Position numbers and translations under genes: made by a program
Notes under the pieces: generated by a model
What the model was told of the DNA's origin: nothing
Database searches by the model: none
Seen by the model: only the letters and a program-made list of their open reading frames with translations
Shown: positions 40,072 to 63,913 of the stretch, piece after piece
Numbering within the stretch: the first letter of the stretch is position 1
Layout: every line of letters begins with the position of its first letter
From: Ectothiorhodospira shaposhnikovii
GTDB taxonomy: Bacteria > Pseudomonadota > Gammaproteobacteria > Ectothiorhodospirales > Ectothiorhodospiraceae
Reading direction: 5' to 3'
Assembly (NCBI RefSeq): GCF_022227765.1
Contig: NZ_JAJMLZ010000010.1
Span: 62,001-126,000, forward strand
Length of the DNA: 64,000 nt

Positions 40072-40089
40072 TCAGTGTCTCCGTCCGGA

Positions 40090-42748: not shown

Positions 42749-42767
42749 GATGCTTCCTTAAAAGGAC

Positions 42768-43091: not shown

Positions 43092-43138
43092 CTCGATACC
43101 CTCCCGGCCCGCATCGGCGGACCAAGCATCAATGCATG

Positions 43139-44164
43139 TCAATAGGGAATGGTCACGCCGGCATCGCGCAGTCTGGCCAGCTTGTAGCGCAGGGTGCGCG
43201 GGCTGATGCCCAGACGGGCGGCGGCGTCCTTGCGGCTGCCCTCTTCCACCCTGAGAGCATCCAGAATCAGTTGTTCTTCCCGGGACCTCAGCCTGTCACC
43301 CAGGCGCTGGGTGGCGGCGGACGTCGGCTCCGAGACAGGGGCATGGAGAGAAGCATGGGGCGCGGCATCGACCTTCCCCATGGCCTCGAACTGGATGGAG
43401 GCGGCATCCAGTTCCTCTCCGTCGCGCAGGATCATGGCCCGCTGGATGACGTTGTCCAGCTCGCGCACGTTGCCCGGCCAGGTGTGATCCATCAGCCGTG
43501 CCGCGGCGGCGGTGGTGAGATTGGCCTGGTCGATGGCGCGACCGTGGATATAGATCAGTCGTCGGGCCAGGGGCAGGATGTCGCCGGGACGCTCCCGGAG
43601 CGGGGGAATGACCAGGGGGAAGACATTGAGCCGGTAGAACAGGTCCTCGCGGAACTTGCCCTCCGCCACCGCCTGCATGAGATTGCGGTTGGACGTGGCC
43701 AGCACCCGGACATCCATCTGCATGGGACGCCGTCCGCCGAGCCTCTCCACCTCCCGCTCCTGCAGCACACGCAGCAATTTCGCCTGCAGGGAGAGATCCA
43801 TCTCGGAGATCTCGTCCAGCAGCAGGGTCCCCCCTTCCGCCAGCTCGAACTTGCCGGGACGGGATTCATAGGCCCCCGTGAATGCCCCCCGCTCATGACC
43901 GAAGAGCATGGCTTCCAGCATGTTTTCGGGAATGGCTGCGCAGTTGACCGCCACGAAGGGACCGTCGGCGCGGGGAGAGTGGGCATGAATGAATCTGGCA
44001 TAGACTTCCTTGCCCACCCCCGACTCGCCGTTGAGCATCACGGTCGCTTCCGAGGCGGCAACACGACGCGCAAGCTCCACCAGTTCCCGGCTCCGCGGGT
44101 CCTCCGCGACCAGCTCGAAGGCCCCGCCGGAAGGGTCCATTGTCAGAAGTGTTGCCTGGGTCAT
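43139..44164 (-). CDS. Sigma-54 activator of the FlrC/FleR group lacking a receiver domain
   Basis: This 341-residue protein has the AAA+ domain with Walker A GESGVGKE (about residue 46), the sigma-54 contact loop GAFTGA (about residue 93) and Walker [13 protein letters not shown], then a Fis-type helix-turn-helix ([19 protein letters not shown]). The first about 20 residues hold no receiver domain, whereas FleR and FlrC have one of about 120 residues. It is placed where fleS-fleR (flrB-flrC) lies in Pseudomonas/Vibrio, but no histidine kinase gene is present. It probably activates the fliL, fliK and other sigma-54 promoters (inference). Confidence 0.9.
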
Positions 44165-44250
44165 CTCACCTGCTCCGAAATGTGGTCCGGTTGTCGGCCC
44201 TCCCGGCGGTGACGTAACACCGGCGATGGAGTGGCCTGCAACCTTCCAGA

Positions 44251-44266
44251 AGCAGGTAACGTGCCA
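44251..44266 (-). promoter_or_regulatory. Sigma-54 promoter of the flrC-like gene
   Basis: The minus strand reads TGGCACGTTACCTGCT; it matches TGGCACG-N4-TTGCW except one T to C and keeps GG at -24 and GC at -12. Transcription would start near 44239, 75 bp before the gene. Just upstream (44267-44316) is an unusually A/T-rich stretch that could bend or bind a regulator. FleQ is the natural activator. Confidence 0.82.
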
Positions 44267-44318
44267 GAAAATAAAAACAATTAAAAACAGATACTTAAAA
44301 ACAAAAAACAGAACTGCG

Positions 44319-45797
44319 TCAGGATTCCGTCGTCATATCATCCCGCTGGACGCCGTATTTCCGCATCTTTTCCACCAGCGTGGTCCGGCGCATGCCCAGT
44401 AACTTGGCGGCATGGGCCACCACCCCGTCGGAGCGATCAAGGGCCTGCCGGATCAGCTGGGTCTCCAGATCGCTGATGTACTCCTTGAGATCCAGCCCGG
44501 ACTCGGGCAACCCGGCCTCCAGGGTGACGGGAGCATCGACCTCGGCCGCACTGATGGTCTGCAGATCCTGTTCACTCAGGCCGGCCCTGAATTTGCCGGG
44601 CAGGTCATCAGGCGACACGGTTTCTCCCGGAAACATGATGGAGAGACGTTCCACCAGGTTGGCCAGCTCACGAACATTGCCGGGCCAGTCATAACGGGAC
44701 AGTACCCGCAGGGCAGCGGGAGAAAACCGCACCCCGGAGCGTCCCTCGGCCTCCATCCGGGTCACCAGCTCATCGATCAGCAAGGGCAGGTCCCTGAGCC
44801 GATCCCGCAGCGGCGGTACCTCGATGGGGAATACATTGAGTCGATAATACAGATCTTCCCGGAAGGTGCCTTCCTGGATCGCCACCTCCAGATCCCGATG
44901 GGTCGCGGCAATGATGCGTGCATCGGTGGTCAGCGTCTTGGTGCTGCCCACACGCTCGAAAGTACGTTCCTGCAGTACCCGCAGGATCTTCACCTGCATG
45001 GGCAGCGGCATGTCACCGATCTCGTCCAGGAACAGGGTGCCGCCCTGGGCCAGCTCGAAGCGACCGGGACGGGCGGTGATGGCGCCGGTGAAGGCCCCCT
45101 TTTCATGACCGAACAGCTCGCTTTCCAGCAATTCTCCGGGAATGGCGCCACAGTTCACCGCCACGAAGGGCTTGCCGCCACGGGACGAGCACTGGTGAAC
45201 ATTGCGGGCCACCACCTCCTTGCCGGTCCCGGTCTCGCCCAGAATCAGCACATTGGCATCGGTCATCGCCACCTGCTGGATCAGCTCACGGATACGCTGC
45301 ATGGTCCGGTGATACCCCACCAGGGAATGGTAGAGCGCCTGATGCCGGACCTTGTCCGGCGAGACCCCGTTGACCACCAGATGACGCGCCGTCTGCAGAC
45401 TGCCCGACAAGGCGGGATAACGCAGGGGGAAGTCCAGGCGACCCAGCACCCGGGGATGCATCGCATCCGGCAGGGATGAAAATTCCTCGGCGGCACCCGC
45501 CAGGATCAGTGGGGGCAATCCATCAAGCGCCGACAGGGGTTCCACCAGCTCGGCCCCATGCGCCACGGCGCAACCGCTGACCAGAATCGCCAGCCAGTCC
45601 CCCCGGGTCTGCTCCCGCAGATGAGCGCCGCACTCCCGTGGCGACATCACCCGTGGACGACAGCCCAGAAAGTCCAGGATGGTTTCCATGCGTTCGGCGC
45701 GCCGGGCATCCCCCGCCACCACCAGGACGACATCGGGCAACAGTGGAGGCTGTCCGTCCGCGTCTTCGGTTGTCGATAATGGGTCTTGAAGTGTCAT
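44319..45797 (-). CDS. fleQ: Flagellar master regulator FleQ (FlrA)
   Basis: This 492-residue sigma-54 activator has an N-terminal receiver-like FleQ domain without the phosphorylation Asp pattern, a AAA+ domain with Walker A GETGTGKE, the GAFTGA loop and [12 protein letters not shown], and a C-terminal Fis helix-turn-helix ([21 protein letters not shown]). It heads the flagellar cascade and in Pseudomonas binds c-di-GMP and is restrained by FleN (FlhG here). The neighbouring PilZ-like gene fits a c-di-GMP link. Confidence 0.93.
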
Positions 45798-45886
45798 AAA
45801 TATACGCCCTGGACCGTTCCATGGGTCCGAAACAATAACCGCTTTTTGAAAAGGCTCAGTTGACCTGCGCCGCCGTCCCGACCCGT

Positions 45887-46459
45887 TCAGTTCGGGGTTT
45901 CATCACGCCTGGACCGGCTCTGGGCGATGCTGCGTCGATGGCGCCGGAACACCATTTTCTGAATGCCGTCTTCGAGTGCCGGACTCATTCCCTGGAACAG
46001 CACGCTCAGATCATAGCCCGATTCCGCGGCCTCGCACGAGGTCACCCGGGCATACAGCGTCAGCGGCCGGGGAAACTGGGGACACAGATAAAAGCTCAGG
46101 CACAGGGCCTGCCCGGGCGGCAGGGACTCCGGCTGGACCCAGCCCAGGCCTTCGGCGGAAATCCGCAAAGGAACCGGCGGCGGAATCCGCGCATGGGCAT
46201 GCAGCAACAGACTCACCATTTCCACCAGCAGGTTGACCTTCGACTCGATTCTGAGCAGTTCCTGGGTCACCTCACCGGCGTCATCGATCCGTCGCGGCTG
46301 AACATCATCCATGCCTGCGCAGACCCGGAGCAGGCTTTCATTGGCTTCATTGATCCGGGCCAGCTCTTCAGCCGGAGGAATCCCGTCCACCGGTTCCATC
46401 GCCAGGGGGAGTCGATCCCTGATCACCAGCACATCCTTGAAGGGATCGTCTGTCGTCAT
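45887..46459 (-). CDS. PilZ-like (atypical PilZ) protein
   Basis: This 190-residue protein has an N-terminal helical region and a C-terminal PilZ-like beta-barrel (about residues 90-175: [26 protein letters not shown]..), ending in a basic helix [17 protein letters not shown]. The canonical RxxxR and D/NxSxxG c-di-GMP motifs are not clear, so it fits the atypical PilZ class. It lies immediately upstream of fleQ in the same direction, 89 bp away, a common arrangement. Confidence 0.65.
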
Positions 46460-46522
46460 GATCTCATTTCAGCATAACCGCAAAGTGACAGGCAAAACCC
46501 GGATATCCCGGATCCGCCCCGA

Positions 46523-48013
46523 TCAAGTACCGCAGAAAGTCTGGTACACCCGCTCCGCCGGGTCCGGAGGCCGGGCATAGGCCTGGTCGTCCTCCGCCAG
46601 TGCCCAGGGATTGCGCACCACCTTGAGCAACCGCCGAAAAGGCCCGAAATCCCCCGCCTCCACGGCCGCCGCAATCACCTGTTCCACCCGATGATTGCGG
46701 GGAATACAGGCCGGGTTGATCCGTCGCATGCGCGCGGCCCGCGCCCCGGGAGACATCGCTCCCTCCCGGCGCAGGCGTGACCGCCACTGCCGCGCCCAGG
46801 CATCGAAGGCCTCGGGCTGCGTGAACAGGCGACGAACCGGCTCATCCTGCCCCTCGTCCTCGGCCGCATCACACAGATGACGAAAACACAGGGTGAAATC
46901 CGCCTGGCCCTGCTGCATGGCCTGCAGCAACCCCTGAATCAGGGCAATGTCCCCCTTATCGGCCGTGCTCAGCCCCAGCTTGAGGCCCATCACGTCAATC
47001 CAGTGACGCGCAAACCGTTCGGAGAAGGAATTTACCAGATCCGTGGCCGATTCCAGCGCCTGATTTTCGTCGGAGCCGATCAACGGCAGCAATGTCTCGG
47101 CCAATCGGGCCAGATTCCACTGGGCCATGGCCGGCTGATTGGCATAGGCATAACGCCCCCGGCTATCGATGGCACTGAAGACCTGATCCGGATGATAGAC
47201 GTCCATGAAGGCGCAAGGACCGAAATCGATGGTCTGTCCGGACACGGCCATGTTGTCCGTGTTCATCACCCCGTGGATAAACCCCACCCCCATCCACAGG
47301 GCCACCAGCCTTGCCTGGGCTTCCACGATGGCCTCCAGCAAGGCCAGACCGGGCTGGTCCGCCTCACGGGTCCAGGGGTAATGACGATCCGCGACATGGT
47401 CCGCCAGTTGCCCCAGCGCCGCCCGATCGCCACGCATGGCGAAATACTGAAATGTCCCCACCCGCACATGACTGGCTGCCACCCGGGTCAGCACAGCCCC
47501 CGGCAGGACCGTTTCCCGCAGCACCGGTTCTCCGGTGGAGACGGCGGCCAGGGCCCGGGTCGAAGGGATGCCCAGGGCATGCATGGCCTCGCTGACCAGA
47601 TACTCACGCAACACCGGACCGAGGGCGGCACGGCCATCGCCTCCCCGGGAAAACGGGGTACGGCCCGATCCCTTGAGCTGGATATCCCGACGCTGCCCCC
47701 GCACATCCACCACTTCCCCCAGCAGGATGGCCCGCCCATCCCCCAGCCGGGGCACGAAATGCCCGAACTGATGGCCGGCATAGGCCATGGCCAGGGGCTC
47801 CGAGCCGGGCAGTACGCGGTTACCCGCAAACACCTGGGCCCAGACTTCCGGCGTCAGGGACAGGGGATCGATGCCCAGCTCCCGACACAGGTCGTGATTG
47901 AGTTCTATCAGGGAGGGGGCAGGCACCGGATCCGGGTCAAGCCGGACATGGAAGGTCTCCGGCAGGCGGGCATAGGTGTTGGAAAACGGGATCGGATCAG
48001 GCACCGGGGACAC
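46523..48013 (-). CDS. selO: SelO/YdiU family protein AMPylase
   Basis: This pseudokinase-fold protein of about 496 residues belongs to the SelO family, which transfers AMP from ATP to protein Ser/Thr/Tyr residues, with a role in redox stress. Family motifs include AYAGHQFGHFVPRLGDGRA, LKGSGRTPFSR and GVMNTDNM. It ends in FCGT: the redox position is Cys here, not selenocysteine as in animal SelO. The GTG at 48013 has AAGGAGG ten bases upstream; a longer frame to 48124 would cover the FNR-like box and adds only a basic, low-complexity stretch. Being next to a selenocysteine locus is probably a coincidence of genes, not function. Confidence 0.93.
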   Translation of the reverse strand: MSPVPDPIPFSNTYARLPETFHVRLDPDPVPAPSLIELNHDLCRELGIDPLSLTPEVWAQVFAGNRVLPGSEPLAMAYAGHQFGHFVPRLGDGRAILLGEVVDVRGQRRDIQLKGSGRTPFSRGGDGRAALGPVLREYLVSEAMHALGIPSTRALAAVSTGEPVLRETVLPGAVLTRVAASHVRVGTFQYFAMRGDRAALGQLADHVADRHYPWTREADQPGLALLEAIVEAQARLVALWMGVGFIHGVMNTDNMAVSGQTIDFGPCAFMDVYHPDQVFSAIDSRGRYAYANQPAMAQWNLARLAETLLPLIGSDENQALESATDLVNSFSERFARHWIDVMGLKLGLSTADKGDIALIQGLLQAMQQGQADFTLCFRHLCDAAEDEGQDEPVRRLFTQPEAFDAWARQWRSRLRREGAMSPGARAARMRRINPACIPRNHRVEQVIAAAVEAGDFGPFRRLLKVVRNPWALAEDDQAYARPPDPAERVYQTFCGT

Positions 48014-48110
48014 AGGGTTCAAACCTCCTTCATTGGGCCGGCGGGCACACCGCCACAGCAATCCGACCACGCGCCGCCGTCGGGGTTCGCGCCGACGGCG
48101 GCAAGGAATA

Positions 48111-48151
48111 TTGACCATACTCAATTCCGGGTCTACGCTCTAGCTTATATA
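48111..48151 (+). promoter_or_regulatory. FNR/ANR-like box and -10 element of the formate dehydrogenase operon
   Basis: TTGACCATACTCAA (48111-48124) has the TTGA-N6-TCAA core of FNR/ANR sites, with one C for T and one C for A in the inner positions. A -10 element TATATA is at 48146-48151, so transcription would start near 48158. The box centre is then about -41, the class II FNR activation position. It indicates anaerobic activation (inference). Confidence 0.55.
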
Positions 48152-48257: not shown

Positions 48258-51200
48258 ATGCAAGTCACCAGACGCCAGTTCATGAAGCTCTGCGGCGTCG
48301 GGCTGGGATCATCCAGCCTGGCGGTCATGGGCTTCTCCCCCACCGAGCTGCAGGCTTCGGTGCGCCAGTTCAAACTGGCCCGCACCAGGGAGACCCGCAG
48401 CACCTGTCCCTACTGCTCCGTCAGCTGCGGCGTGATCCTCTATACCCGGGGTTCCGGCGCCAAGAATGCCAAGGCCGCCCTGGTGCACGTGGAAGGCGAC
48501 CCGGACAACCCGGTGAACCGGGGCACCCTCTGCCCCAAGGGTGCCGGGCTCATGGACATGATCAACAGCGACAGCCGCTTGCGTCAGCCCCAGTACCGGG
48601 CACCCGGTTCGGATCAGTGGCAGACCCTTTCCTGGGATGAGGCCATCACCCGCATCGCCCGTCTGATGAAGGATGACCGCGATGCCAACTTCATGGAATT
48701 CAATGACCAGGGGCAGCGGGTCAACCGCTGGAACACCACCGGTTTTCTGGCCAGCTCCGCCGCCGCCAATGAAAGCGGCTACCTGACCGCCAAGACCGCC
48801 CGTGCCTACGGCATGACGGCGGTGGATACCCAGGCACGCATCTGACACGCCCCGACGGTGGCCAGTCTGGCCCCGACGTTCGGCAGAGGTGCAATGACCA
48901 ATCACTGGGTCGACATCAAAAATGCCGACCTGATCCTCATCATGGGCGGCAACGCAGCCGAGGCCCATCCCTGCGGCTTCAAGTGGGTCACCGAGGCCAA
49001 GGCCAACCGGGGCGCAAAACTGGTGGTGGTGGATCCCCGCTTCACCCGCTCCGCCGCTGTCTCCGACTACTACGCTCCCGTGCGGGTAGGCTCCGATATT
49101 GCCTTCCTCGGCGGTGTCATCCGCTACCTGCTGGAGACCGGACAGATCAATCACGAATACGTGGCCCATTACACCAATGCGGCCCTGATCGTGAAGGAGG
49201 AGTACAGTTTTGCGGACGGTCTGTTCTCCGGCTACGACGAGGTCAACCGCCGCTATGACCGCAGTTCCTGGGGTTACGAGCTGGGCGAGGACGGCTACGT
49301 GCGGGCGGATGAGACCCTGCAGCACCCCCGCTGCGTCTACCAGCTGATGAAGACCCACTTCGATCGCTATACCCCCGAGGTGGTCAGTCGCATCACCGGC
49401 ACACCGGAAGACCGTTTCCTGAAGATCTGCGAGATGATCGGCGAAACGTCCCGGCCCGACAAGGTGATGACCATCATGTACGCCCTGGGCTGGACCCAGC
49501 ACAGCGTCGGCTCCCAGAACATCCGCACCATGGCCATGATCCAGCTGTTGCTGGGCAACATGGGCATGCCGGGCGGCGGCGTCAACGCGCTACGGGGCCA
49601 TGCCAACGTGCAGGGCATCACGGACATGAACCTGGTCACCACCAACCTGCCCGGCTACCTGGGACTGCCCGGCGATGACGACCAGAGCTTTGAGGGCTTC
49701 ATGGACAAGCGCGCCCTCAAGCCCGTGCGCCCGGGCCAGATGAGCTTCTGGCAGAACTATCCCAAGTTCCATGTCAGCCTGATGAAAGCCTGGTGGGGCG
49801 AACACGCCAACGCCGACAACGGCTTCGCCTGGGACTACCTGCCCCACGTGGACAAGCCCTATGACGTGCTGCAGATGTTCGAACTGATGCACGCCGGGCA
49901 GATGAACGGGTTCCTCTGTCAGGGCTTCAACCCGCTGGCGGCGGTGTCCCACAAGGCCAAGATGAGCACCGCCCTGGCACGCCTGAAATACATGGTGGTG
50001 ATGGACCCCCTGGCCACGGAGACGTCGGAATTCTGGCGCAATTTCGGCGAGTTCAATCCGGTCAATACCCGCCAGATCCAGACCGAGGTCTTCCGCCTGC
50101 CCACCACCCTGTTTGCCGAGGAAGACGGCACCTTCACCAACTCCGGACGGGTCATCGCCTGGAAGGAGAAGGCAGTGGATCCTCCGGGCGTCGCCCGCAC
50201 CGACCGGCGCATCATCGCCGGACTGTACCTGGAACTGAAGCGACTCTACGAGGAGGAAGGCGGCGCCTACCCGGACCCCATCGTCCACCTGCACTGGCCC
50301 TACGGCAATCCGGACGAACCCTCGGCGCCGGAACTGCTGCGGGAGATCTCCGGCCGGGCGCTGCAGGACATCGGCGATATACCCGCCGGGCGCCAGCTGG
50401 CCGGTTTCGGCCAGCTCAGGGACGACGGCGGCACCGCCTGCGGCAACTGGCTCTACAGCGGCTGCTGGTCGGCGGAGGGCAACCTCACCGCCCGCCGCGA
50501 CACCGCGGACCCCTCCGGCCTGGGCATCTACCCCGGCTGGGGCTTTGCCTGGCCGGCCAATCGGCGCATCCTTTACAACCGCGCCGCCTGCGACACCCAG
50601 GGCAAGCCCTGGGATCCCCGCCGGGCTCCCATTGCCTGGGACGGCAGTCGCTGGAGCGGGCCGGACATCCCCGACATGCGGCCCACCGCCGCCCCCGGGG
50701 AACAGGTCAGTCCCTTCATCATGCTGCCCGAAGGGGTGGCGCGACTGTTTGCGGGCATGAACGACGGTCCCTTCCCCGAGCATTACGAACCCTTCGAAAG
50801 TCCCCTGGGCTACAACCCGCTCCATCCCGACCAGCCCGCGGTGACCAGCAACCCGGCGGCCCGGGTGTTCGCCAACGACTGGGCCAGTTTCGGCACCGCC
50901 CGGGACTTCCCCTACGCCGCCACCACCTACCGGCTCACGGAGCACATGCACTTCTGGACCAAGCATTCCCTGGCCAACGCCATCGTCCAGCCGTCCCAGT
51001 TCATCGAGATCGGCGAAGCCCTGGCGCGGGAAAAGGGGATCGCCAACGGCGACCAGGTCACGGTGGAGTCCAACCGGGGGGAGATCACCGCCACCGCAGT
51101 GGTCACCAAACGCATCAAGCCCCTGCGGGTGGAGGGCCGCACGGTACACACGGTGGGCATTCCCATCCACTGGGGCTTCACCGGCGTGGCCAACAAGGGC

Positions 51201-51293
51201 TACCTGGCGAACGTGCTCACGCCGTTCGTGGGCGATGCCAACTCCCAGACGCCTGAGTTCAAGGCGTTCCTCGTCAACATCGAGAAGGCCTGA
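48258..51293 (+). CDS. fdnG: Selenocysteine-containing formate dehydrogenase, catalytic alpha subunit
   Basis: Read through the UGA at codon 196 (48843-48845) the protein is 1011 residues, like E. coli FdnG/FdoG. A twin-arginine signal (TRRQFMK, residues 4-10) sends it folded to the periplasm. It then has a CPYCSVSCG...CPKG [4Fe-4S] motif and bis-molybdopterin guanine dinucleotide-binding domains. After the UGA come [21 protein letters not shown] residues, nearly the same as in E. coli. It oxidises formate and passes electrons to FdnH. GGAGGAG precedes the ATG. Reading the UGA as a stop would give two broken halves, which is not supported because the full selenocysteine machinery follows. Confidence 0.96.
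48843..48885 (+). promoter_or_regulatory. UGA selenocysteine codon with SECIS-like hairpin
   Basis: Right after the UGA (codon 196) a hairpin can form with stem GGCC (48860-48863) / GGCC (48869-48872), loop AGTCT and lower stem pairs from CGACGG/CCGACG flanks. The E. coli fdnG SECIS has the same AGTCT loop and a G/U motif that SelB recognises. The stem lies 14-29 bases from the UGA, the bacterial spacing. Confidence 0.85.
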
Positions 51294-51304
51294 GGAGGTG
51301 CGCC

Positions 51305-52225
51305 ATGGCATCCATGCAAAGTCTTGATATCAAGAACCGCTCGGCCACCAGCCTGCCCTCCCCCAGCGTGCGCAGTCACACGGAACTGGCCAAGCTCATC
51401 GACGTGTCCAAGTGCATCGGTTGCAAGGCCTGTCAGGTGGCCTGCATGGAATGGAATGACCTGCGGGGACCGGTGGGGGAAAACACCGGCGTCTACGACA
51501 ACCCCCAGGACCTGAACGAGCACACCTGGACCCTGATGCGCTTCTCGGAAGTGGAACCGGATGATTTCTCCTTTGAATGGCTCATCCGCAAGGACGGCTG
51601 CATGCACTGCGACGACCCGGGCTGCCTCAAGGCCTGCCCGGCCCCCGGAGCCATCGTGCAGTATGCCAACGGCATCGTGGACTTCATCTCGGAGAAATGC
51701 ATCGGCTGCGGCTACTGCATCGCCGGCTGTCCCTTCGACATCCCGCGCCTGTCCCGGGCGGACAACCGGGCCTACAAGTGCACCCTGTGTTCCGACCGGG
51801 TGGCCGTGGGCCTGGAACCGGCCTGCGTCACCACCTGCCCCACCGGCTGCATCACCTTCGGCACCAAGGAGGACATGAAACAGCAGGCGGTCCTGCGCAT
51901 TGCGGACCTCAACAGCCGGGGTTACGACAACGCCGGACTCTACGACCCGCCCGGCGTGGGCGGCACCCATGTCATGTACGTGCTGCAGCATGCGGATCGA
52001 CCCGGGCTATACCATGGCCTGCCCGAAGACCCGCGCATCAGTCCCATGGTGGGATTCTGGCAGGGCATCACCAAACCCCTGGCCATCGGTGCCCTGGCCC
52101 TGCTGGCCATGGCGTCCTTCCTGCACTTCATCAAGCACGGCCCCAATGTGGCGGAGGAGGACGACGACGCCCCCTCCCGCGACAAGACCCGGGACCGCAA
52201 GGAGGAATCCAGCCATGTCGAATAA
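51305..52225 (+). CDS. fdnH: Formate dehydrogenase iron-sulfur beta subunit
   Basis: This 306-residue protein has four Cys clusters for four [4Fe-4S] centres: [37 protein letters not shown] and CTLC..CVTTCP. A single C-terminal transmembrane helix (about residues 253-278) anchors it. It passes electrons from FdnG to FdnI. A GAGGTG ribosome site lies seven bases before the ATG, and its 3' end overlaps fdnI by 11 bases. Confidence 0.96.
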
Positions 52226-52847
52226 AGACGATATCCGGCGCTACAAGGACGGGGAAAGACTGCACCACTGGATCGTGGCCGTCACCTTCATCCTCCTGGC
52301 CATGTCGGGGCTGGCCCTGTTCCATCCGTCCCTGTACTGGCTCACCAACCTCTTCGGCGGCGGCCAGTGGACCCGCATCCTGCACCCCTTCATCGGCCTG
52401 GTGATGTTCGTGTCGGTGATGGTGCTGATGGTGCGATTCTGGCGTCACAATCTCGTCAACCGGGATGACCTGCGCTGGATCCGCTACCTGCCCGACGCCC
52501 TGCACAAGCGGGAAGGCCGCCTGCCCCCGGTGGGTCGCTACAACGCCGGCCAGAAGATCATCTACTGGTCCACGGTCATCGGCATGTTCCTGCTGCTGTT
52601 CTCCGGGCTGATCATGTGGCAACCCTACTTCGCCCCGGTCTTCCCCATCGGTCTGGTGCGGTTCGCCATCCTGGTGCATGCCTTCAGCGCCATCCTGCTG
52701 ATGATGGTCATCATCCTGCACATCTATGCCGCCATCTGGGTCAAGGGCAGCCTGCAGGCCATGGTCAAGGGCACGGTGAGCCGGACCTGGGCGAAGAAGC
52801 ACCACCCCCTGTGGTACCGGGAAGTCACCCAGGAGGAGCGTAAATGA
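52215..52847 (+). CDS. fdnI: Formate dehydrogenase cytochrome b gamma subunit
   Basis: This 210-residue membrane protein has four transmembrane helices, with His residues in [11 protein letters not shown] and later helices ([24 protein letters not shown]) for two haems b. It donates electrons to quinone. GGAGG lies seven bases before the ATG at 52215. The chemistry together with FdnGH conserves energy by a redox loop in E. coli; in a phototroph it could feed formate electrons into the quinone pool. Confidence 0.94.
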
Positions 52848-53761
52848 CCACCATCCTGCGGCCGGGAGAGATCCAGGGTCCCGGCACCCCGGCACCATTC
52901 CTGAAACTGCCCGACCCGGACAGCCTGTTCACCCGGCGGGCGGAACGGTTCCAGGGACTGGCACAGGATCATCCGGTGGAGGCCTTCCTGCTGTTCATGG
53001 CCGCCCTGACCCAGGCCCAGCACCGCCTGGTGGAGACGCTGACCGGCAGGGCCCCGGACACCCTGCCCCGCCCCGCCCCCCGGGGACTGCCCTTCCCGGC
53101 GGCCGGGCTGCCGGACATCCGTCACTGGCAACCCGGTCTACGGTCATTGCTGGAAGAGATCGAACCATCGGCTCCGGCCCCCACCCGGGCCGCCATCCGG
53201 CGGCTGCGGCACATGTCCGACCCGGATCGGGTCGCCATGGCCAGGGAGATCCTCCGTGGCCATGGCAGTGCCCGGGACCCGGCCGCCGCCCCACTGCTGG
53301 CGGCGGCCCTGCAGGCCCACTGGACTGTGTGGATTGGACAGACGGCAGTGGAGGGCATCCCGGCGCAGACCGAGGCCACCCACTGTCCCGTCTGCGGCAG
53401 CCCCCCGGTGGCGGGGGTGATCCACAGCGGCGGCGGCATCCATGGTCGCCGCACCCTGCACTGCAGCCTGTGCCAGAGCCAGTGGCATCTGGAGCGGCTC
53501 AAATGCAGCCACTGCCATGCCACCACCGATCTGGAGTATCCGGGTCTGGAAGGCCATCACCCGGCCGTCAAGGCCGAAGTCTGCGGCCACTGTCGCAGCT
53601 ATCTCAAGCTCATCAACCTGGAAACCGATCCCCGGGCCGACCCGGTGGCCGACCATCTGGCCACCCTCGCCCTGGACCTGCTGCTGGGGGAGGAAGGCTA
53701 CACCCCCAGCGGCATCAATCTGCTGCTCTATCTGGAAGAGGCACCCGCCACCACAGCCTGA
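52844..53761 (+). CDS. fdhE: Formate dehydrogenase accessory protein FdhE
   Basis: This 305-residue protein has four C-x2-C motifs in its C-terminal half (CPVC, CSLC, CSHC, CGHC) that bind iron in the rubredoxin-like FdhE family. It is needed for respiratory formate dehydrogenase activity and probably acts on the FdnG/FdnH pair before Tat export. It overlaps fdnI by ATGA. FdhD, the sulfur transferase for the cofactor, is not in this window. Confidence 0.93.
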
Positions 53762-53873
53762 TGCAACCCCAAAAACCCCGCGGGAGCGGGCCTGCCCGCA
53801 AACAGCGCCGCTGAAAGCACAACCGTCGCTCCCCACAGTAACCCAGTGCCGCGTGACGGCCGAGTCAAGGACC

Positions 53874-55310
53874 ATGACCACCAGAACAGACACCGAATGC
53901 TCCCCATCACCCACCAGCATCGACCCCAGCCACCGCCCTCCCGCGGTGGAACGGCTGCTCACCCATCCCCGGGCCGTCCCCCTACAGAACCGACACGGTC
54001 GCCGCTCCCTGATCCAGGCCCTGCGCCTGGTACTGGATCAGTGGCGGGGCGACCCCCGACCCTCACCCACCCCCGACCACTTCCTCGATCGTGCCGAAGC
54101 CGTGCTGGAGGCCGCCGCCACCCCGCGCCTGCGCCCTGTGTTCAACCTCACGGGCACCGTCCTGCACACCAACCTGGGCCGCGCCCTGCTGCCGGAGGAG
54201 GCCATGACCGCCGTGATCCAGGCCGCCACCCGTCCCGGCAATCTGGAGTTCGACCTGGCCACCGGCAAGCGCGGCGACCGGGACACCCTCATCAACGGCC
54301 TGATCCGGGAACTCACCGGTGCCGAGGCCGCCACCGTGGTCAACAACAACGCCGCCGCCGTGCTGCTGGCCCTCAACACCCTGGCCCTGCGCAAGGAAGT
54401 GATCATCTCCCGGGGGGAACTGGTGGAGATCGGCGGCGCCTTCCGCATCCCCGAGGTGATGAGCCGGGCCGGTTGCAAGCTGGTGGAGGTGGGCGCCACC
54501 AACCGCACCCACGCCCGTGACTTCCAGCAAGCCCTCACCGAACGCACCCGCCTCATTCTCAAGGCCCATACCAGCAACTATGCCATCGAGGGCTTCACCC
54601 ACACGGTTCCCGAACCGGAACTGGCCGCCCTGGCCCACGCCCACGCACTGCCCTTCATGGTGGACCTGGGCAGCGGCACCCTCACCGACCTGAGTCGCCA
54701 CGGGCTGCCCCGGGAACCCACGGTGCAGGACACCCTGGCCCATGGCGCCGACGTGGTTACCTTCAGCGGTGACAAGCTGCTGGGCGGCCCCCAGGCGGGG
54801 CTGATCGTGGGCCGAGCCGACCTCATCGACCGCATCAAGAAAAACCCCCTCAAGCGCGCCCTGCGGGTGGACAAGATGACCCTGGCCGCCCTGGAGGCCG
54901 TGCTTCGTCTCTACCGGGACCCGGACCGATTGGGAGAACGACTCACCACCCTGCGCCTGCTCAGCCGCCCCGTCGAACGGATCCGCACCCAGGCCGAACG
55001 CCTGCTGCCGGCCCTGCAGGCGGCCCTGGGGGACGGCATGACGGTCACCAGCCGTCCCTGCCGAAGCCAGATCGGCAGCGGCGCCCTGCCGGTGGACCGA
55101 CTGCCCAGCCAGGCCCTGGTCATCCAGCCCACCCAACGGGGACGGGGCGCCGGCACCACCCTCAAAGGCCTGGAACAGCGGCTGCGGGACCTGCCCGTGC
55201 CGGTGATCGGCCGGCTGCACGACGGGGCCCTGTGGCTGGACCTGCGCTGCCTGGAGGATGAGGCCGATTTCGTATCCCAGCTACCTCGCCTGCGGGAGAT
55301 CGCATCATGA
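53874..55310 (+). CDS. selA: L-seryl-tRNA(Sec) selenium transferase SelA
   Basis: This 478-residue PLP enzyme converts seryl-tRNA(Sec) to selenocysteyl-tRNA(Sec) with selenophosphate. The PLP lysine is in [11 protein letters not shown]. The N-terminal tRNA-binding part has PAVERLL. AAGGACC precedes the ATG at 53874. A frame extending to 53442 overlaps fdhE and is not real. It sits 112 bp after fdhE and overlaps selB by ATGA. Confidence 0.96.
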
Positions 55311-57223
55311 TCATCGGTACCGCCGGCCATATCGACCACGGCAAGACCGCCCTGGTGAAGGCCCTCACCGGCGTTGACGCCGACCGCTGGAAGGAGGAAC
55401 AGGCACGGGGCATCACCCTGGACCTGGGCTATGCCTACCAGACCCTGGATGACGGCCTCAGCCTGGGCTTCGTGGATGTGCCCGGGCATGAAAGGCTCAT
55501 CCACAACATGCTGGCCGGGGCCACCGGCATCGACCACGTCCTGCTGGTGATTGCCGCCGATGACGGTCCCATGCCCCAGACCCTGGAACACCTGCAAATC
55601 CTTTCCCTGCTGGGACTGGAGCGGGGCACGGTGGCCCTGAACAAATGCGACCGGGTGGACGAGGACCGACTGGCCCGGGTCCTCTCCCGGGTCCAGGCCC
55701 TGCTACGGGATTCCGCCCTGGCCGATGCCCCCGTCCTGCCGGTTTCCGCCATCACCGGCCGGGGTCTGGCGGCCCTCAAGGATCATCTGCACCGGCAGGC
55801 CCGCCTTCAGGGCGAACGGCGGCATGAGGGCCGTTTCCGGCTGGCGGTGGATCGCTGCTTCACCCTCGGCGGGACCGGCACCGTGGTCACCGGCACCGTC
55901 CACGCCGGACAGGTCAGGGTCGGCGACCACCTGTGCCTGAGTCCTTCCGGCCTGAACGTGCGGGTCCGCGGCCTGCATGCCCAGAACCGGCCGGCGGAAC
56001 GGGGCCTGACCGGCCAGCGCTGCGCCCTCAACCTCACCGGCCCCCATCTGACCCGGGAGGCCGTCAGCCGGGGCGACTGGGTGGTGGACCCGGACCTTCA
56101 CCACCCCGCCGTGCGCCTGGATGCCCGACTGCGGGTGCTGGCGGACGCGCCCGGCCCGCTGACCCACTGGACACCGGTCCACCTGCACCTGGGGGCCGCC
56201 CGGCTCATGGCCCGGGTGGCGGTCCTGGAGGGAGAGGCCATCCCGCCGGGAGCCGACGGTCTGGTGCAACTGGTCCTGTCCCAGGAGACCCACGCCCTGC
56301 GGGGGGACCGCTTCGTGCTGCGGGACGTCTCCGCCCGCCGCAATCTGGGGGGCGGCCTGATCCTGGATCCCTGGGGACCCGCCCGGGGCAGGCGCACGGC
56401 CTCGCGTCTGGCCCTGCTGCGGGCCTGGGAACAGAACGATCCCCTGGCGGCATTACGCCAGGCCCTGCCCCAGGCGCCGGGCGGCCTGAATCTGGAAACA
56501 CTGTCCCGCCAGTGGAACCTGGACCCGACCGAGCAGACACGACTGGCGGACACGCCGGATCTGCTGACCCTCGAAACCCCGGCGGGTCCAGTGGCCTTTG
56601 ATCCCGGACTCTGGCAGGACCTGAAGACACGGACACTCAAGCAACTGGGGGAAGAGCATGCCCATCACCCCGACCGCCTGGGTCCCGACCGGGAACGCCT
56701 GCGGCGCCGGGTGGCCCCTGCCCTGGCCCGCCCTGTATTCGCCGCCCTGGTGGATGAACTGCTAGCGGCAGGTGCCGTACGGCAACAGGCCCCCTGGCTG
56801 CACCTGCCCGACCATTGTCTGCACCTGTCCCCGGATCAGGAAACACTCTGGCAGAACCAAATCCTGCCCCTGGTCCAGGCCGACCCCTTCAATCCCCCCC
56901 GGGTGCGGGACATTGCCCGCGCCCTGTCCCAGGATGAGACCCACATCCGGGCCCTGATGCAGCAGCTCACCGCCATGGGGCAGGTCTGCCGCATCGCCCA
57001 TGATCACTATTTCCACCGGGAGGCAGTGGCCGAACTGGAAGCCATCGTCCGCGAGTTGTCCGACACCGAGGGGGCGGCCCTGGCGGCTCCGTTCCGGGAC
57101 CGCATCGGCACCGGCCGCAAGGTGGCCATCCAGATCCTGGAGTATTTTGATCGCATCGGCTACTGCCGCCGGGTAGGCGATGAACACCGGGTATTCCGGG
57201 ACTCCCTATGGCGCATGCGCTGA
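55307..57223 (+). CDS. selB: Selenocysteine-specific elongation factor SelB
   Basis: This 638-residue GTPase has G1 GHIDHGKT, the switch I/II DVPGHE and NKCD motifs, then EF-Tu-like domains II and III and a C-terminal series of winged helices that bind the SECIS hairpin. It brings selenocysteyl-tRNA(Sec) to the in-frame UGA. Start overlaps selA stop. Confidence 0.97.
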
Positions 57224-57268
57224 ACACCCGTTCCGTATCCATCGGCACCCATTGCAAGGAATCCAATC

Positions 57269-58318
57269 ATGTCCACCACCGACCACATCCCCCTCACCAC
57301 CCTCTCCCACGGCGGCGGCTGCGGCTGCAAGATCGCCCCAGCCGTCCTTCAGGAGGCCCTGCGGGGACTGACCCAGGGGGTGTTTCAGCCGGACCTGCTG
57401 GTGGGCAATGCCGGCAGCGACGATGCCGCCGTCTACCGGCTCAACGACCAGCAGGCCCTGGTGGCCACCACCGATTTCTTCATGCCCATCGTGGATGATC
57501 CCTTCGACTTCGGCCGCATCGCCGCCACCAACGCCCTGTCCGACGTCTATGCCATGGGCGCCACCCCCATCCTGGCCCTGGCCATCCTGGGCATGCCCCT
57601 GGACAAACTGCCGGTGTCCACCATCCGCCGGATCATGGCGGGGGGGGCGGCAATCTGCGCCGAGGCGGGCATCAACGTGGCGGGCGGTCATTCCATCGAC
57701 AGTCCGGAACCCATCTATGGCCTCGCCGCCCTGGGGCTGGTCCACCCGGACAGGGTCAAACGCAACGATCAGGCCCGGGACGGAGACGTGCTGATCCTGG
57801 GCAAGCCCCTGGGCATCGGTGTGCTGAGCAGTGCCTTGAAGAAAGGCCTGCTGGACGCCGCCGGCTACCAGGCCATGCTGAGCACCACCACCCGCCTCAA
57901 TCGGGTGGGCATCCCCCTGGGGGAACTGCCCGGTGTCCACGCCATGACCGATGTCACAGGCTTCGGCCTGCTGGGGCATCTGCTGGAGATCTGCCGGGGA
58001 TCGGGCCTGGCGGCCCGGGTGGAGTTCTCCCGGCTACCCATCCTGGACGCGGCCCGTCCCCTGGCGGAACAGGGTCTGGGGCCGGGGGCCATGGAGCGCA
58101 ACTGGGAGAGTTATGGGGCCGCGGTGAGGCTGGCGGACCATCTGCCGGACTGGGCCTGGCGCATCGGCACCGATCCGCAGACCAGCGGCGGCCTGCTGGT
58201 GGCCTGCGACGAACAGGCGGCGGCCACGGTACTGGCCCTGTTCAGAAGCCATGGGTTTGAAGCAGCGGCAACCATCGGCAGGCTGGAGGCAGGCACCCCG
58301 ACGGTGGATCTGGGCTGA
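57269..58318 (+). CDS. selD: Selenide, water dikinase SelD
   Basis: This 349-residue selenophosphate synthetase has LSHGGGCGCKIAP near residues 11-23; the catalytic position is Cys (not selenocysteine). The downstream motif VGNAGSDDAAVY and a Gly-rich loop follow. It makes selenophosphate for SelA. AAGGAATCC lies just before the ATG. It lies 45 bp after selB and probably shares its transcript. Confidence 0.96.
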   Translation: MSTTDHIPLTTLSHGGGCGCKIAPAVLQEALRGLTQGVFQPDLLVGNAGSDDAAVYRLNDQQALVATTDFFMPIVDDPFDFGRIAATNALSDVYAMGATPILALAILGMPLDKLPVSTIRRIMAGGAAICAEAGINVAGGHSIDSPEPIYGLAALGLVHPDRVKRNDQARDGDVLILGKPLGIGVLSSALKKGLLDAAGYQAMLSTTTRLNRVGIPLGELPGVHAMTDVTGFGLLGHLLEICRGSGLAARVEFSRLPILDAARPLAEQGLGPGAMERNWESYGAAVRLADHLPDWAWRIGTDPQTSGGLLVACDEQAAATVLALFRSHGFEAAATIGRLEAGTPTVDLG

Positions 58319-58328
58319 ACGCCCCCCT

Positions 58329-58347
58329 TAGCGGCCAAGGGCCGCTA
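58329..58347. terminator. Hairpin between selD and selC
   Basis: A perfect 8-bp stem TAGCGGCC / GGCCGCTA with a three-base loop lies 11 bp past the selD stop and eight bp from the selC 3' end. It has no T-run, so it may be a Rho-assisted or RNA-end hairpin shared by both directions. Confidence 0.45.
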
Positions 58348-58354
58348 CGGACAA

Positions 58355-58450
58355 TGGCGGAAGGGCGTGGGAGTCGAACCCACCCGGGACCGCCTGACGG
58401 CCCCAACCGGTTTTGAAGACCGGCCGCACCACCGGGCACGAAGCCCTTCC
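58355..58450 (-). tRNA. selC: tRNA-Sec (anticodon UCA)
   Basis: On the minus strand the sequence GGAAGGGC...GCCCTTCCGCCA has an 8-bp acceptor stem, a long variable arm and TTCAA in the anticodon loop (anticodon UCA). The GTTCGACTCC T-loop region and GGTCCCGGG variable arm resemble E. coli selC. With its encoded CCA it is 96 nt. It is convergent with selD. Confidence 0.97.
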
Positions 58451-58487
58451 CATGTCCTTTCCCTAAAAGGCCTCCCCGTGTCCCTAC

Positions 58488-58583
58488 ACGACGTCTTCCT
58501 TGAACGACGTCTTCCTTGAACGACGTCTTCCTTGAACGACGTCTTCCTTGAACGGCGCCTTCCTTACACGACGCCTTCCTTAC
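58488..58583. repeat. Six tandem copies of a 16-bp repeat
   Basis: The unit ACGACGTCTTCCTTGA is repeated exactly four times (58488-58551), followed by two variant copies (ACGGCGCCTTCCTTAC and ACGACGCCTTCCTTAC). A seventh partial copy, ACGACGTCATTCC, runs directly into the palindromic element at 58589. It lies downstream of the selC 5' end and encodes no gene. Confidence 0.92.
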
Positions 58584-58588
58584 ACGAC

Positions 58589-58658
58589 GTCATTCCCGCG
58601 AAAGCGGGAATCCAGTCCGCGCTGAAAAATCCCGGACTCCCGCTTTCGCGGGAGTGAC
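58589..58658. repeat. REP-like palindromic element, copy 1
   Basis: Two hairpins, one of GTCATTCCCGCG/CGCGGGAAT type (58589-58611) and one CTCCCGC/GCGGGAG (58637-58654), face each other; the ends GTCA and TGAC make the whole an inverted repeat. A third, decayed palindrome (CCGCTTCCGCGGAAGC) is near 58700. The rest of the interval to 58878 has no gene or other clear feature. Confidence 0.85.
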
Positions 58659-58878
58659 GACAGCGGTGCCGCGGAACAAACGAAGATCAGGAGAACAACC
58701 CGCTTCCGCGGAAGCAACAACGGCGAAATGATGGAAATGATTGTAAGGCCACATGACCACCAGTACCATCCTCCCCCGTCCGAACCATCAGTAACATATC
58801 CCCCGCCCGACACAACCGAAACCGATCTCGGCCAGGACTGAAAACCAGAGTCGCCAGACAAAACCCGGGGCCAATCCC

Positions 58879-60501
58879 TCACTGCCGCCAGCCCGAAATC
58901 ACCCGGGGGCTACCATCCACAAACCGGGCCCACTCCGGCGTCCGGTGTACCCGCCCCTGATCATCCACGGTCAGGGTGCCCGTCAGACCATGGAGACGCT
59001 CCCCGCCTCCCTGTTGCAAAGTGCCCAGCCGCATCCCCAGCCGATAGGCATCATAGCCAAAGGCCCCCATGCGCGGCCATCGCTGCAGGGAGGCATCCAG
59101 CGATGTCTCCAGGCCGGCCCGGGGACCGGTCTGGCCAAGCAACCAGGGCATGTCGGCCACCAGCACACCCTCCATATCCCGGTCCACACCCGGATCCATA
59201 CGCCCGGAGAAGACGTGGGAGGTGGCAAAAACCGGCAGATCACCCGCCTGATGGAAACGCAACTGGGGCACGATCAGCCGGGCATGACGGGGTTCGCCGG
59301 AGATGAACACCATGTCCACATCCCGACGCCCGCGCCCCTGTTCATCCGCCATCACACCGGCACGGATCACATCGCCAAAGTCCGTGGCCTGATGGGGAAA
59401 GGTCTGCACTGATCGCACTTCCCCGCCCAGGGCTTCAAACCGGGCACGAAAGGCGACCCGCAGCCGCTCGCCCAGATCCGTGCGCGGCACCATCACCACC
59501 GCCCGTCGGTGCCCCTGGGCAAAGGCCCGCTGGGCCGCTTCGACCGCTTCATCCTCGGGATTGAGGCCGAAACGGAAAAAATGCGCCGGATACTGCCTGC
59601 GTCCTTCCCCATGATTCAGGGCCAGCACCGGCACTGGCAACGCGCCGGGACGAGCAGCCAGCCGGTCCACGGCCTCCCGGGACAAGGGGCCGATGACCAG
59701 ATCCGCCCCCTCGCGCACGGCTTCCTCGTAATGACGCAGCACATCGCCGGCATCCTCACCCATATCGTGGACACGCAACACGACGGACGAGGCGACGCCG
59801 GCGTCCTCGTGGGCCGCCTCAATCCCCTGCAGGATGCCGCGGGCGACGCTGCCGTAACGCCCGGTCAGGGGCAGGATGACCGCGATCCGGCGCGGCGGCG
59901 AGCCACTGCCCGCCATGCCCGTCCGCTGTGAAATCGGTGTTCCCGCACCGGTGACCGTGCCAGGCAGGGAGCCGGTCGAAGACGGCGCGACCGGCCGTGT
60001 GGGCACCAAGGCCACCCGCACTGCAGAGGGCGGCTCGATCCCCCGTGAGCGCAATGCCTCATCCAGACGATTCACCGTATCCGGGCTGGATGCCCGGCTT
60101 CTCAGGGCCCGTAATTCAGCGGTATCCAGCCCTTGCAGCCAGTGCATCAGTTGCTGCCGTGCCCATGCCTGCGAAGCGGCATCCTCCGCCAGGGCATGGG
60201 CACGATTCCAGGTGGTGATCGCATCCAGATGACGTCCCAGCGCCGCCTCGGCCTGGGCACGGATGGCCAAGGACTGCAGCGCCAGGGTCGTGGACAGACG
60301 ATGGGATTCCAGCGGCAGATGACGCAATGCCTGCAGGGGATCCTGCTGCTCCAGTGCCATCCTGGCCGCCTGGAGCCGGTCATCATCACCGGCCAGCGCG
60401 GGCATGAACGCCGTCACCAGCAACAGGCAAAGACCGAGGAGCAAACCATGCAACCCTGGCAGATGGGTGCATCGCCCCGACACAACGCCACTGCGCATCA
60501 T
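58879..60501 (-). CDS. LpoA/LppC family protein (penicillin-binding protein activator)
   Basis: This protein of about 540 residues has an N-terminal signal-like hydrophobic stretch, a helical TPR-like N-domain and a C-terminal periplasmic-binding-protein-like domain (IAVILPLTGRYGSVARGILQGIEAA from about residue 205). LpoA of E. coli stimulates PBP1A from the outer membrane. Here the leader (LLLVTAFMPALAGDD) has no lipobox Cys, so it may be soluble or membrane-held rather than a lipoprotein. The ATG pair at 60501/60498 has GGGTCAGGT upstream; an earlier ATG at 60531 does not. Confidence 0.82.
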   Translation of the reverse strand: MMRSGVVSGRCTHLPGLHGLLLGLCLLLVTAFMPALAGDDDRLQAARMALEQQDPLQALRHLPLESHRLSTTLALQSLAIRAQAEAALGRHLDAITTWNRAHALAEDAASQAWARQQLMHWLQGLDTAELRALRSRASSPDTVNRLDEALRSRGIEPPSAVRVALVPTRPVAPSSTGSLPGTVTGAGTPISQRTGMAGSGSPPRRIAVILPLTGRYGSVARGILQGIEAAHEDAGVASSVVLRVHDMGEDAGDVLRHYEEAVREGADLVIGPLSREAVDRLAARPGALPVPVLALNHGEGRRQYPAHFFRFGLNPEDEAVEAAQRAFAQGHRRAVVMVPRTDLGERLRVAFRARFEALGGEVRSVQTFPHQATDFGDVIRAGVMADEQGRGRRDVDMVFISGEPRHARLIVPQLRFHQAGDLPVFATSHVFSGRMDPGVDRDMEGVLVADMPWLLGQTGPRAGLETSLDASLQRWPRMGAFGYDAYRLGMRLGTLQQGGGERLHGLTGTLTVDDQGRVHRTPEWARFVDGSPRVISGWRQ

Positions 60502-60609
60502 GACCTGACCCTTCGATGATCGAATTTCCATGGTGAATCCATGAGCGGATATCCCCCTGTGTCGGCTTCCCCCTCATTTTCTTGACCCGGCCATGGATGT
60601 TCCGAACCC

Positions 60610-60676
60610 GTCATTCCCGCGAACGCGGGAATCCAGTCACGGTGCCCCCATGGACTCCCGCTTTCGCGGGAGTGAC
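60610..60676. repeat. REP-like palindromic element, copy 2
   Basis: The same two-hairpin structure as at 58589-58658: GTCATTCCCGCG/CGCGGGAATCC then CTCCCGCTTTCGCGGGAG, ending in TGAC. The ends are inverted repeats. It lies between the divergent lpoA-like gene and the LPP20-like gene. Two copies within 2 kb show it is a dispersed family in this genome. Confidence 0.88.
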
Positions 60677-60737
60677 GGCTGATAAATACGGGAGTGACGC
60701 CGGGGAATAACGGCCGGAGACAGGGTCGGAATATTCC

Positions 60738-62465: not shown

Positions 62466-62550
62466 TGGTGCCCGGAGCCGGACTCGAACCGGCACGGCCA
62501 AAGCCGAGGGATTTTAAATCCCTTGCGTCTACCAATTTCGCCATCCGGGC
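62466..62550 (-). tRNA. tRNA-Leu (anticodon UAA)
   Basis: On the minus strand GCCCGGATGGCGAAATTGG begins a tRNA with a 7-bp acceptor stem (GCCCGGA/TCCGGGC), the anticodon loop TTTAAAA (anticodon UAA), a long class II variable arm and an encoded CCA. It is 85 nt long and convergent with the FlgT-like gene. Confidence 0.96.
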
Positions 62551-62632: not shown

Positions 62633-63913
62633 TTGACCTATTTCACATCGACGCCGCCCGTGTTTCCGACCCTCACATCCGTATCCACCCTGCTCCTGGG
62701 CATGGGCATCCTGCTCTGCGGCTCCGGCATGCTGGGTACCCTGCTGGGCCTGAGCGCCGCCCAGGAAGGCCTGCCGAGCTGGCTGATCGGCCTGGTCATG
62801 TCCGGCTTCTTCATGGGCTTCATCATCGGCTCGTTCCTCTGCCCCCGCCTGATCCGACGGGTGGGACACATCCGTGCCTTCGCCGCCCTGGCCGCCGTGT
62901 CGGCCATCGCCGCCCTGCTCCACGGTCTGATCTTCGATCCCTGGGTGTGGTGGGTGTTGCGCATCTTCAACGGCATCTCGGTGGTGGGGCTTTACATGGT
63001 CATCGAAAGCTGGCTCAACGAACGGGCACGACAGAACCGGGGCCAGATCTTCGCCTTCTACATGACGGTCTGCCTGGTGATGCTGGGCGTGGGACAGTTC
63101 CTGGTACTGATCTACGGACCGGGGCATCTGGCCAGCTATGCCCTGGTGGCCATTCTGTTCTCCCTGGGGCTGATCCCCATCGCCCTGACGCCGGCCTTGC
63201 AGCCCACGCCCATCAAGGCCCAGGCCCTGCCGCTGAAGACCCTCTATGGCAGGACGCCGGTGGGCGTGGTCGGAGCGCTGGTGGCGGGGATCGCCTCGGG
63301 CGGGTTCTGGGGGTTCGGAGCCATCTATGCCCAGCAGTCCGGCATCGAACCCCTGGGGGTGGCCGCCTTCGTCAGCGCCGTGATCCTGGGCGGCGCCCTG
63401 CTGCAATGGCCCATCGGCTTTTTCTCCGACCATCGGGACCGGCGCTGGGTGCTGGTCTTTGCCTGTGCCGGCGCGGCCCTGGCGGCCCTGAGCATCTTCA
63501 TGACCGTGGATCAGTCACTGCTGGTACTGCTGGTGGCGGCCCTGTTCTACGGCGGGTTTGCTTTCAGTCTCTACGCCCTGGCGGTGGCCCATACCCATGA
63601 CCGACTGGATGTCACCCAGGTGCTGGAAGGCACCCAGGGGCTGCTGTTGCTCAACGGCATCGGTGCCACCCTGGGGCCGTTGCTGGCCGGGATTGCGGTG
63701 AGTGTCGCATCCATCAGCGTGCTGCCCCTGCTGTTCGGGAGCATCATCCTGCTGCTGTCCCTGTTCGCGCTATGGCGAATCCTGCGGGAACCTCCGGTGG
63801 CGCCCGAGGAGAAGGCCGGCTTCGTGCCGGTCACCCGTACCTCGGCGGTGGCGGCCGAACTGGACCCCCGCACCGAACTGCAACCGGAGCTGGACCTGGA
63901 ACACAAGCCCTGA
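62633..63913 (+). CDS. MFS transporter (YcaD-like)
   Basis: This 426-residue major facilitator protein has 12 predicted transmembrane helices and the RRVGHIRAFA loop between helices 2 and 3. Members of this group (YcaD family) have no known substrate. TTG at 62633 was taken as start; GTG at 62660 is an alternative. The last about 35 residues are an acidic tail. The neighbouring genes give no clue to the substrate. Confidence 0.85.
   Translation: MTYFTSTPPVFPTLTSVSTLLLGMGILLCGSGMLGTLLGLSAAQEGLPSWLIGLVMSGFFMGFIIGSFLCPRLIRRVGHIRAFAALAAVSAIAALLHGLIFDPWVWWVLRIFNGISVVGLYMVIESWLNERARQNRGQIFAFYMTVCLVMLGVGQFLVLIYGPGHLASYALVAILFSLGLIPIALTPALQPTPIKAQALPLKTLYGRTPVGVVGALVAGIASGGFWGFGAIYAQQSGIEPLGVAAFVSAVILGGALLQWPIGFFSDHRDRRWVLVFACAGAALAALSIFMTVDQSLLVLLVAALFYGGFAFSLYALAVAHTHDRLDVTQVLEGTQGLLLLNGIGATLGPLLAGIAVSVASISVLPLLFGSIILLLSLFALWRILREPPVAPEEKAGFVPVTRTSAVAAELDPRTELQPELDLEHKP

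Follow-up and report, generated by a model that had tools for sequence, protein, structure and literature searches.

A selenocysteine formate dehydrogenase gene cluster with its own decoding machinery in Ectothiorhodospira shaposhnikovii, and its deletion from a sister genome

In Escherichia coli, formate dehydrogenase-N (fdnGHI) carries selenocysteine (Sec) in its alpha subunit, where the UGA codon is followed by a selenocysteine insertion sequence (SECIS), and is completed by beta and gamma subunits. To our knowledge, the E. coli sel genes do not lie beside fdnGHI. Here we describe a locus of Ectothiorhodospira shaposhnikovii in which the two sets of genes adjoin, namely positions 48258-58450 of a 64,000-nucleotide stretch of its genome (the window). 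In Sec-decoding alphaproteobacteria, betaproteobacteria and Pseudomonadales, selA-selB-selC operons with a neighboring fdhA as the only selenoprotein gene were described, and it was proposed that transfer of the Sec trait needs such a cluster together with its client (Zhang et al. 2006, PMC1794560). Likewise, for most donors and recipients of the Sec trait, the sole selenoprotein gene was described as lying very close to the Sec genes, selD among them, or in one operon with them (PMC5029168), and selD as being seldom contiguous to selA-selB (PMC1273633). The linkage of Sec genes with a single client, and its mobility, is an established idea; the fate of the linked genes in a sister genome is what is new here.

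We propose, with a probability of roughly 0.88, that the locus is a self-contained Sec unit with FdnGHI as its client, that it was present at this address in the common ancestor of the window's genome (G000) and its sister genome G002, and that it was deleted in G002. The eight genes that an earlier note on this DNA had placed within about 10 kb are all present in 10.2 kb, with the open reading frame list, NCBIfam, Rfam and ARAGORN in agreement. The plus-strand genes begin with fdnG (48258-51293), encoding the formate dehydrogenase-N alpha subunit (TIGR01553, 1467.8 bits against a cut-off of 814.2), followed by fdnH (51305-52225; iron-sulfur beta subunit; TIGR01582, 468.7 bits), fdnI (52215-52847; cytochrome b gamma subunit; TIGR01583, 218.5 bits), fdhE (52844-53761; formate dehydrogenase accessory protein; TIGR01562, 229.4 bits), selA (53874-55310; selenocysteine synthase; TIGR00474, 583.9 bits), selB (55307-57223; Sec-specific elongation factor; TIGR00475, 465.5 bits) and selD (57269-58318; selenophosphate synthetase, with no in-frame UGA; PRK00943, 518 bits). 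Each of the six genes from fdnH to selD passes its curated NCBIfam cut-off, the fdnI and selA scores being taken on longer open frames that begin at 51900 and 53442. Within the latter frame, selA most likely starts at the ATG at 53874, 112 nt past the end of fdhE. selC, the gene for tRNA-Sec (UCA), occupies 58355-58450 on the minus strand (81.1 bits against a cut-off of 47, and found by ARAGORN as well); being convergent with selD, it lies outside the selD-side transcript. The ATGA overlaps reported earlier between fdnI and fdhE (at 52844) and between selA and selB (at 55307) are both real, and to these should be added an 11-nt overlap between fdnH and fdnI (52215-52225). All reading frames of the unit are intact in the window. 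The G+C content is 69-70% over 54-58 kb, as compared to 61-68% in the rest of the window.

To place this layout among known loci, we scanned contigs with a six-row SelA alignment and considered the best 80 of at least 577 confirmed relatives, all from named genomes. Tight spacing was not required, several of the 80 loci are cut by contig ends, and for 14 the fetched stretch contains no fdnG. In 54 of the 80 loci, the genes are exactly fdnG-H-I-fdhE-selA-selB-selC, all pointing the same way, while all seven proteins, selD included, plus selC were found in the fetched stretch of six, in one of which selD is only 44% identical. The present locus differs from these mostly fdnGHI-fdhE-selA-selB-selC loci in having selD between selB and selC, which none of the best 80 shows, and in its inverted selC, which one of them shares.

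fdnG encodes 1011 amino acids with a single internal UGA at codon 196 (48843-48845), and the earlier placement of this codon is borne out by translation and by a match to the Rfam SECIS_3 family at 48840-48898 on the plus strand (66.6 bits, gathering threshold 63). Among 66 FdnG rows from named genomes, codon 196 is covered by 63, each with a single stop within its aligned stretch, and not by the other three. The components of the Sec-decoding trait are present (SelB, tRNA-Sec, SelA, SelD and a UGA followed directly by a SECIS in the coding frame), as are those of a formate dehydrogenase-N, with FdnG, FdnH and FdnI over curated cut-offs together with the maturation factor FdhE. FdnGHI is predicted to be an active respiratory formate dehydrogenase, bound to the membrane and with Sec as residue 196. 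SelA, SelB, SelD and tRNA-Sec, encoded alongside, would make Sec and insert it at the fdnG UGA, the putative SECIS hairpin just past this codon would direct the insertion, and FdhE would aid the maturation of the enzyme.

The evidence for loss comes from G002. This genome is collinear with window positions 37895-48129 at 87% identity and resumes at 62513 at 89%, with about 860 bases between. These bases hold a scrap of selD (window 57699-57748; 88.7% over 53 columns) and a scrap of selC at its 5' end (58424-58451; 28 of 28 exact), which, together with a short selB-end scrap, lie in window order. The selD scrap, as the best local alignment, scores 77, compared with 26.8 +/- 2.8 (maximum 42) in 200 shuffles and with 24-31 in 16 control comparisons (eight overlapping window stretches, both strands). 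In G002 as a whole we found no SelB (E 1e-70), SelD (E 1e-30) or FdnG (E 1e-100). Given ordered scraps at the same address in a genome lacking these three proteins, the unit was once there: G002 lost it by deletion, in steps whose order and number we infer. A gap in the blastn comparison had suggested an empty insertion site in G002, and this is ruled out by the selD and selC relics. Indeed, a recently mobile island would be expected to have a clean, unoccupied counterpart in some close relative, whereas the G002 site holds relics.

The ancestral address in the G000/G002 lineage would lie between selO and lppC, both outside the unit. The divergent left-hand neighbor selO (46523-48124, minus strand) encodes a protein adenylyltransferase (PF02696, 394.9 bits), and the right-hand neighbor lppC (58879-60531, minus strand) an LppC-family lipoprotein (PF04348, 205.9 bits). 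The window's lppC is also gone from the G002 site, the sole G002 match being a 44% relative on another contig. REP-like palindromic repeats lie at 58585-58662 and 60603-60680, with further matches at several points of the stretches from G008 and G002; directly before the first of them, at about 58483-58590, a short tandem repeat can be seen by eye. Relics were also sought elsewhere in the genus. Blastn-short at E 1e-3 found none in 11 further genus loci, and none were found in G001, G005, G006, G007 and G009 within the stretches examined, the equivalence of these addresses with the window not having been shown in either case. A 19-nt match in G004 and a 46-nt selB match in G003 were judged to be chance or another gene; the latter sits in a stretch encoding another GTPase-like frame, 34% identical to SelB. 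As a separate observation, the anticodon of tRNA-Leu(UAA) is interrupted, according to ARAGORN, by a group I-like intron of 228 nt in G002 (L105, 10873-11185) and in the close relative G008 (L028, 9985-10297), with the G002 intron matching Rfam Intron_gpI at 32.7 bits (E 1.1e-6), below the gathering threshold of 50; the window's own tRNA-Leu(UAA) (62466-62550) has no intron. Beside the G008 tRNA-Leu, about 2.2 kb (L028, 8004-10259) missing from the window include what appears by eye to be an ABC ATPase-like gene.

G008 carries the unit as well, next to lppC, and its similarity to G000 bears on a different history, in which the unit is a block that recently moved into G000 and G008, or was exchanged between them, with G002 being near the pre-insertion state. 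At 4-fold degenerate sites, the two genomes share 95.4-99.4% identity in four genes of the cluster and in part of selA (fdhE and fdnI not scored), and the surroundings are mostly lower: 86.7% for selO, 82.3% for lppC, 52-58% for three genes left of selO, 52-87% over seven neighboring genes and 61-87% over nine frames of contig C36. Four open frames with low amino-acid but high 4-fold identity (94-99%; three from L122, one from L034) were set aside as likely antisense, and alignments of at least 400 bases came from only four of the 15 background stretches (L113, L119, L122 and L123). The wider background is, however, a mosaic: window positions 1-20000 are 75-96% identical in five pieces, the gene at 62633-63910 reaches 96.0% at 4-fold sites and the next gene 91.4%. 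The contrast of 98% against 81-86% was therefore not taken as exchange, although a recent exchange between G000 and G008 is possible. In sliding comparisons, moreover, the block of high identity, which runs from about 47.0 to 58.46 kb and weakens within fdhE, does not stop at the unit and continues into the N-terminal part of selO. The flagellar block at about 38146-46900 deserves a separate remark: for three genes there, the 4-fold identity of G000 is 52-58% to G008 but 70-78% to G002, which would suit a replacement of the block in G008.

The distribution of the unit was examined in 47 genomes of the family, 38 of them good, including ten of the genus (SelB at E 1e-70, FdnG at E 1e-100). SelB was found in 8 of 47 genomes and in two of the ten genus members, and FdnG likewise in 8 of 47. 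Both occur in G000, G008, G012, G013 and G045; SelB without FdnG in G036, G041 and G042, the last being 82% complete with a contig that ends beside fdhE; FdnG without SelB in G010, G027 and G032, which are incomplete (66-81%) and whose FdnG genes have an in-frame TGA; and neither gene in 36. The two thus co-occur (Fisher p 0.0017), and more clearly so in the good genomes (5/2/0/31 for both, SelB only, FdnG only and neither; p 4e-5). Every family FdnG match long enough to include both the start and codon 196 contains a single internal TGA, its exact position not being checked per genome. The unit is not always compact, as fdnG lies about 40 kb from selB in G012, and since SelB and SelO are far apart in G012, G013 and G045, the address beside selO is seen only in the window's genus.

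The earlier note had suggested comparing the locus and its phylogeny within the family, and trees add to this picture. A SelA tree of 88 rows (quick method, with SH-aLRT as the sole support measure) unites G000 with five other family genomes in a clade (99) whose members pair by genus. G036 groups with a pair of Rhodocyclaceae (100), and G041 stands far off on a very long branch. The family thus appears in three places, with its label needing three changes, of which at least two are forced by well-supported branches. Near-complete G036 (L032) and G041 (L033), on these other SelA branches, have selA, selB and selC. In the FdnG tree, which is without row L084 (G032), as in the SelA tree, five family members form one clade (100 and 99, respectively), and over the 69 genomes with both proteins the two distance matrices correlate at r 0.889, with none of 2000 permutations as high. 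As the permutation ignores shared species history, the agreement is compatible both with the two genes having descended vertically together and with their having been transferred together.

Taken together, patchy presence, the forced SelA changes, the differing addresses in other genera and the high G000/G008 identity are what a recently moved block would leave. We nonetheless regard such a block as unlikely. The G002 site holds ordered selD and selC scraps at this very address, and the divergence of the selD scrap (88.7%) is about that of the flanks (87-89%), so that this site is not empty; the six-row SelA clade pairs by genus; and none of ten neighbor proteins matches an integrase (three have no match at all, and attachment repeats were not searched for). 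The earlier suggestion that the unit could be moved as a whole agrees with the long-published proposal (PMC1794560, PMC5029168), while what the present data hold is loss, and differing addresses in other genera, with no transfer event shown.

We return to the proposed self-contained unit, and to its client. In G000 (3.34 Mb, 39 contigs, 99.96% complete), a single SelB, a single Sec-type FdnG and a single SECIS_3 element (with 150 of 1772 first-look candidates scored) exceed their cut-offs, SelD occurs once at E 1e-30, and mnmH, for 2-selenouridine synthase, was not found at E 1e-20. A candidate second tRNA-Sec on contig C39 (47.9 bits, just over the cut-off) proved to be tRNA-Ser(UGA). SelO, which contains Sec in eukaryotes, was considered as a second selenoprotein and rejected, as the window's copy ends in FCGT followed by a UGA stop and has no in-frame UGA; of 13 SelO loci considered, seven have a readable end (L050, L052, L056, L058, L060 and L061 being left out), and of these six end in FCGT and one in SCSS. 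In the G008 SelO match, an in-frame TGA stands at codon 17, a point upstream of the start of most relatives' matches, and one was flagged in the G002 SelO too, its position within the match not located. As neither a further Sec client nor a selenouridine pathway was found, the machinery is probably kept for FdnG alone and would stand or fall with it. That a dedicated Sec machinery sits together with one client is upheld by these copy numbers and by the co-occurrence in the family, and no second SelB, second SelD or other client came to light, a second selA not having been searched for.

Several points weigh against our reading and should be considered. In G002, the selB-end scrap (57215-57226) is only 12 nt long, with E 0.13 on its own. 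In G008, the unit is split between two contigs, the gap between them (about 53762 to 54060) reaching into selA, and its left junction is unseen because, near 48160, the selO contig and the fdnG contig each run out in sequence unmatched in the window. In free energy, the SECIS stretch is not unusual (z = -0.90; 30 of 200 shuffles as stable), so that the SECIS call draws on the Rfam profile and on position. FdhD was not found in G000, and the maturation of FdnG is therefore not fully explained. In two of the seven good SelB-bearing family genomes (G036 and G041), FdnG was not found at E 1e-100, and the machinery can thus occur without FdnG; for G041, no SECIS match was found at E 0.5 within 55 kb around its sel genes. 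Finally, FdnG is the only client found in G000 in searches that did not include an unbiased genome-wide UGA/SECIS scan, and the earlier suggestion that FdnG may be the sole reason for UGA recoding agrees with the counts to that extent. The last two points would also suit a view in which the clustering is incidental and G000 keeps Sec for several unrelated, unseen selenoproteins. This we consider improbable, given the single SECIS_3 over cut-off, the absence of an in-frame UGA from SelD and from SelO next door, and the description of fdhA as the only selenoprotein in alphaproteobacterial, betaproteobacterial and Pseudomonadales genomes with the cluster (PMC1794560).

The FdhD result extends beyond G000. 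FdhD is a formate dehydrogenase sulfurtransferase described as needed for the E. coli enzyme (PMC10609526, PMC6239281). No match to it (TIGR00129) was found at E 1e-10 in G000, G008, G012 and G045, all of which bear FdnG, and none of the 47 family genomes has one over the cut-off, weaker homologues not being listed for all. Relatives below the cut-off (117-127 bits) occur in five family genomes, including G013 and G036. The search was positive in 8 of 14 named control genomes, E. coli included, while a distant FdhD-like query matched 6 of the best 80 SelA loci and is too insensitive for absence to be concluded from it. The lack is notable, yet not unheard of, and a diverged FdhD may be present in these genomes. 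The earlier statement that every piece needed to make and use Sec is at hand accordingly stands for the machinery and the client, and does not extend to use by the enzyme. As FdhD is a maturation factor rather than a part of the enzyme, the assignment to formate dehydrogenase-N is unaffected. One can thus ask whether the cluster is decaying or silent, its enzyme made but inactive for want of FdhD, as the loss that sister G002 has already undergone might also suggest. Intact frames in the window and the 97.8-99.7% identity of the five G000/G008 proteins (selA in part) make this very improbable. Only tentatively, and as somewhat less than an even chance, do we suggest that G000, G008, G012 and G045 have kept a Sec formate dehydrogenase-N active over long evolutionary spans without FdhD; if so, sulfuration of the molybdenum cofactor would use another donor or be dispensable. 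These FdnG-bearing genomes offer a set of organisms in which to address the question of maturation.

The three close relatives form a natural comparison, with the unit whole in G000, on two contigs in G008 and in scraps at the same address in G002. They show that a rare amino acid can vanish from a lineage through deletion of one locus along with its client, a joint loss in keeping with formate dehydrogenase being what sustains the Sec trait, as has been published. The cluster itself is a real, complete and ordinary example of a published type. Like E. coli fdnGHI, it has a Sec alpha subunit (here by its TIGR01553 match), a SECIS after the UGA and beta and gamma subunits, and it differs in that the sel genes adjoin fdnGHI and that FdhD was not found. 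With the clusters described in Pseudomonadales and Betaproteobacteria (PMC1794560) it shares the gene order fdnG-H-I-fdhE-selA-selB and the UGA in fdnG. It resembles the horizontally moved Sec traits described in PMC5029168 in content and in patchy presence among sister species, but what is directly evidenced here is a deletion in a sister rather than a gain.

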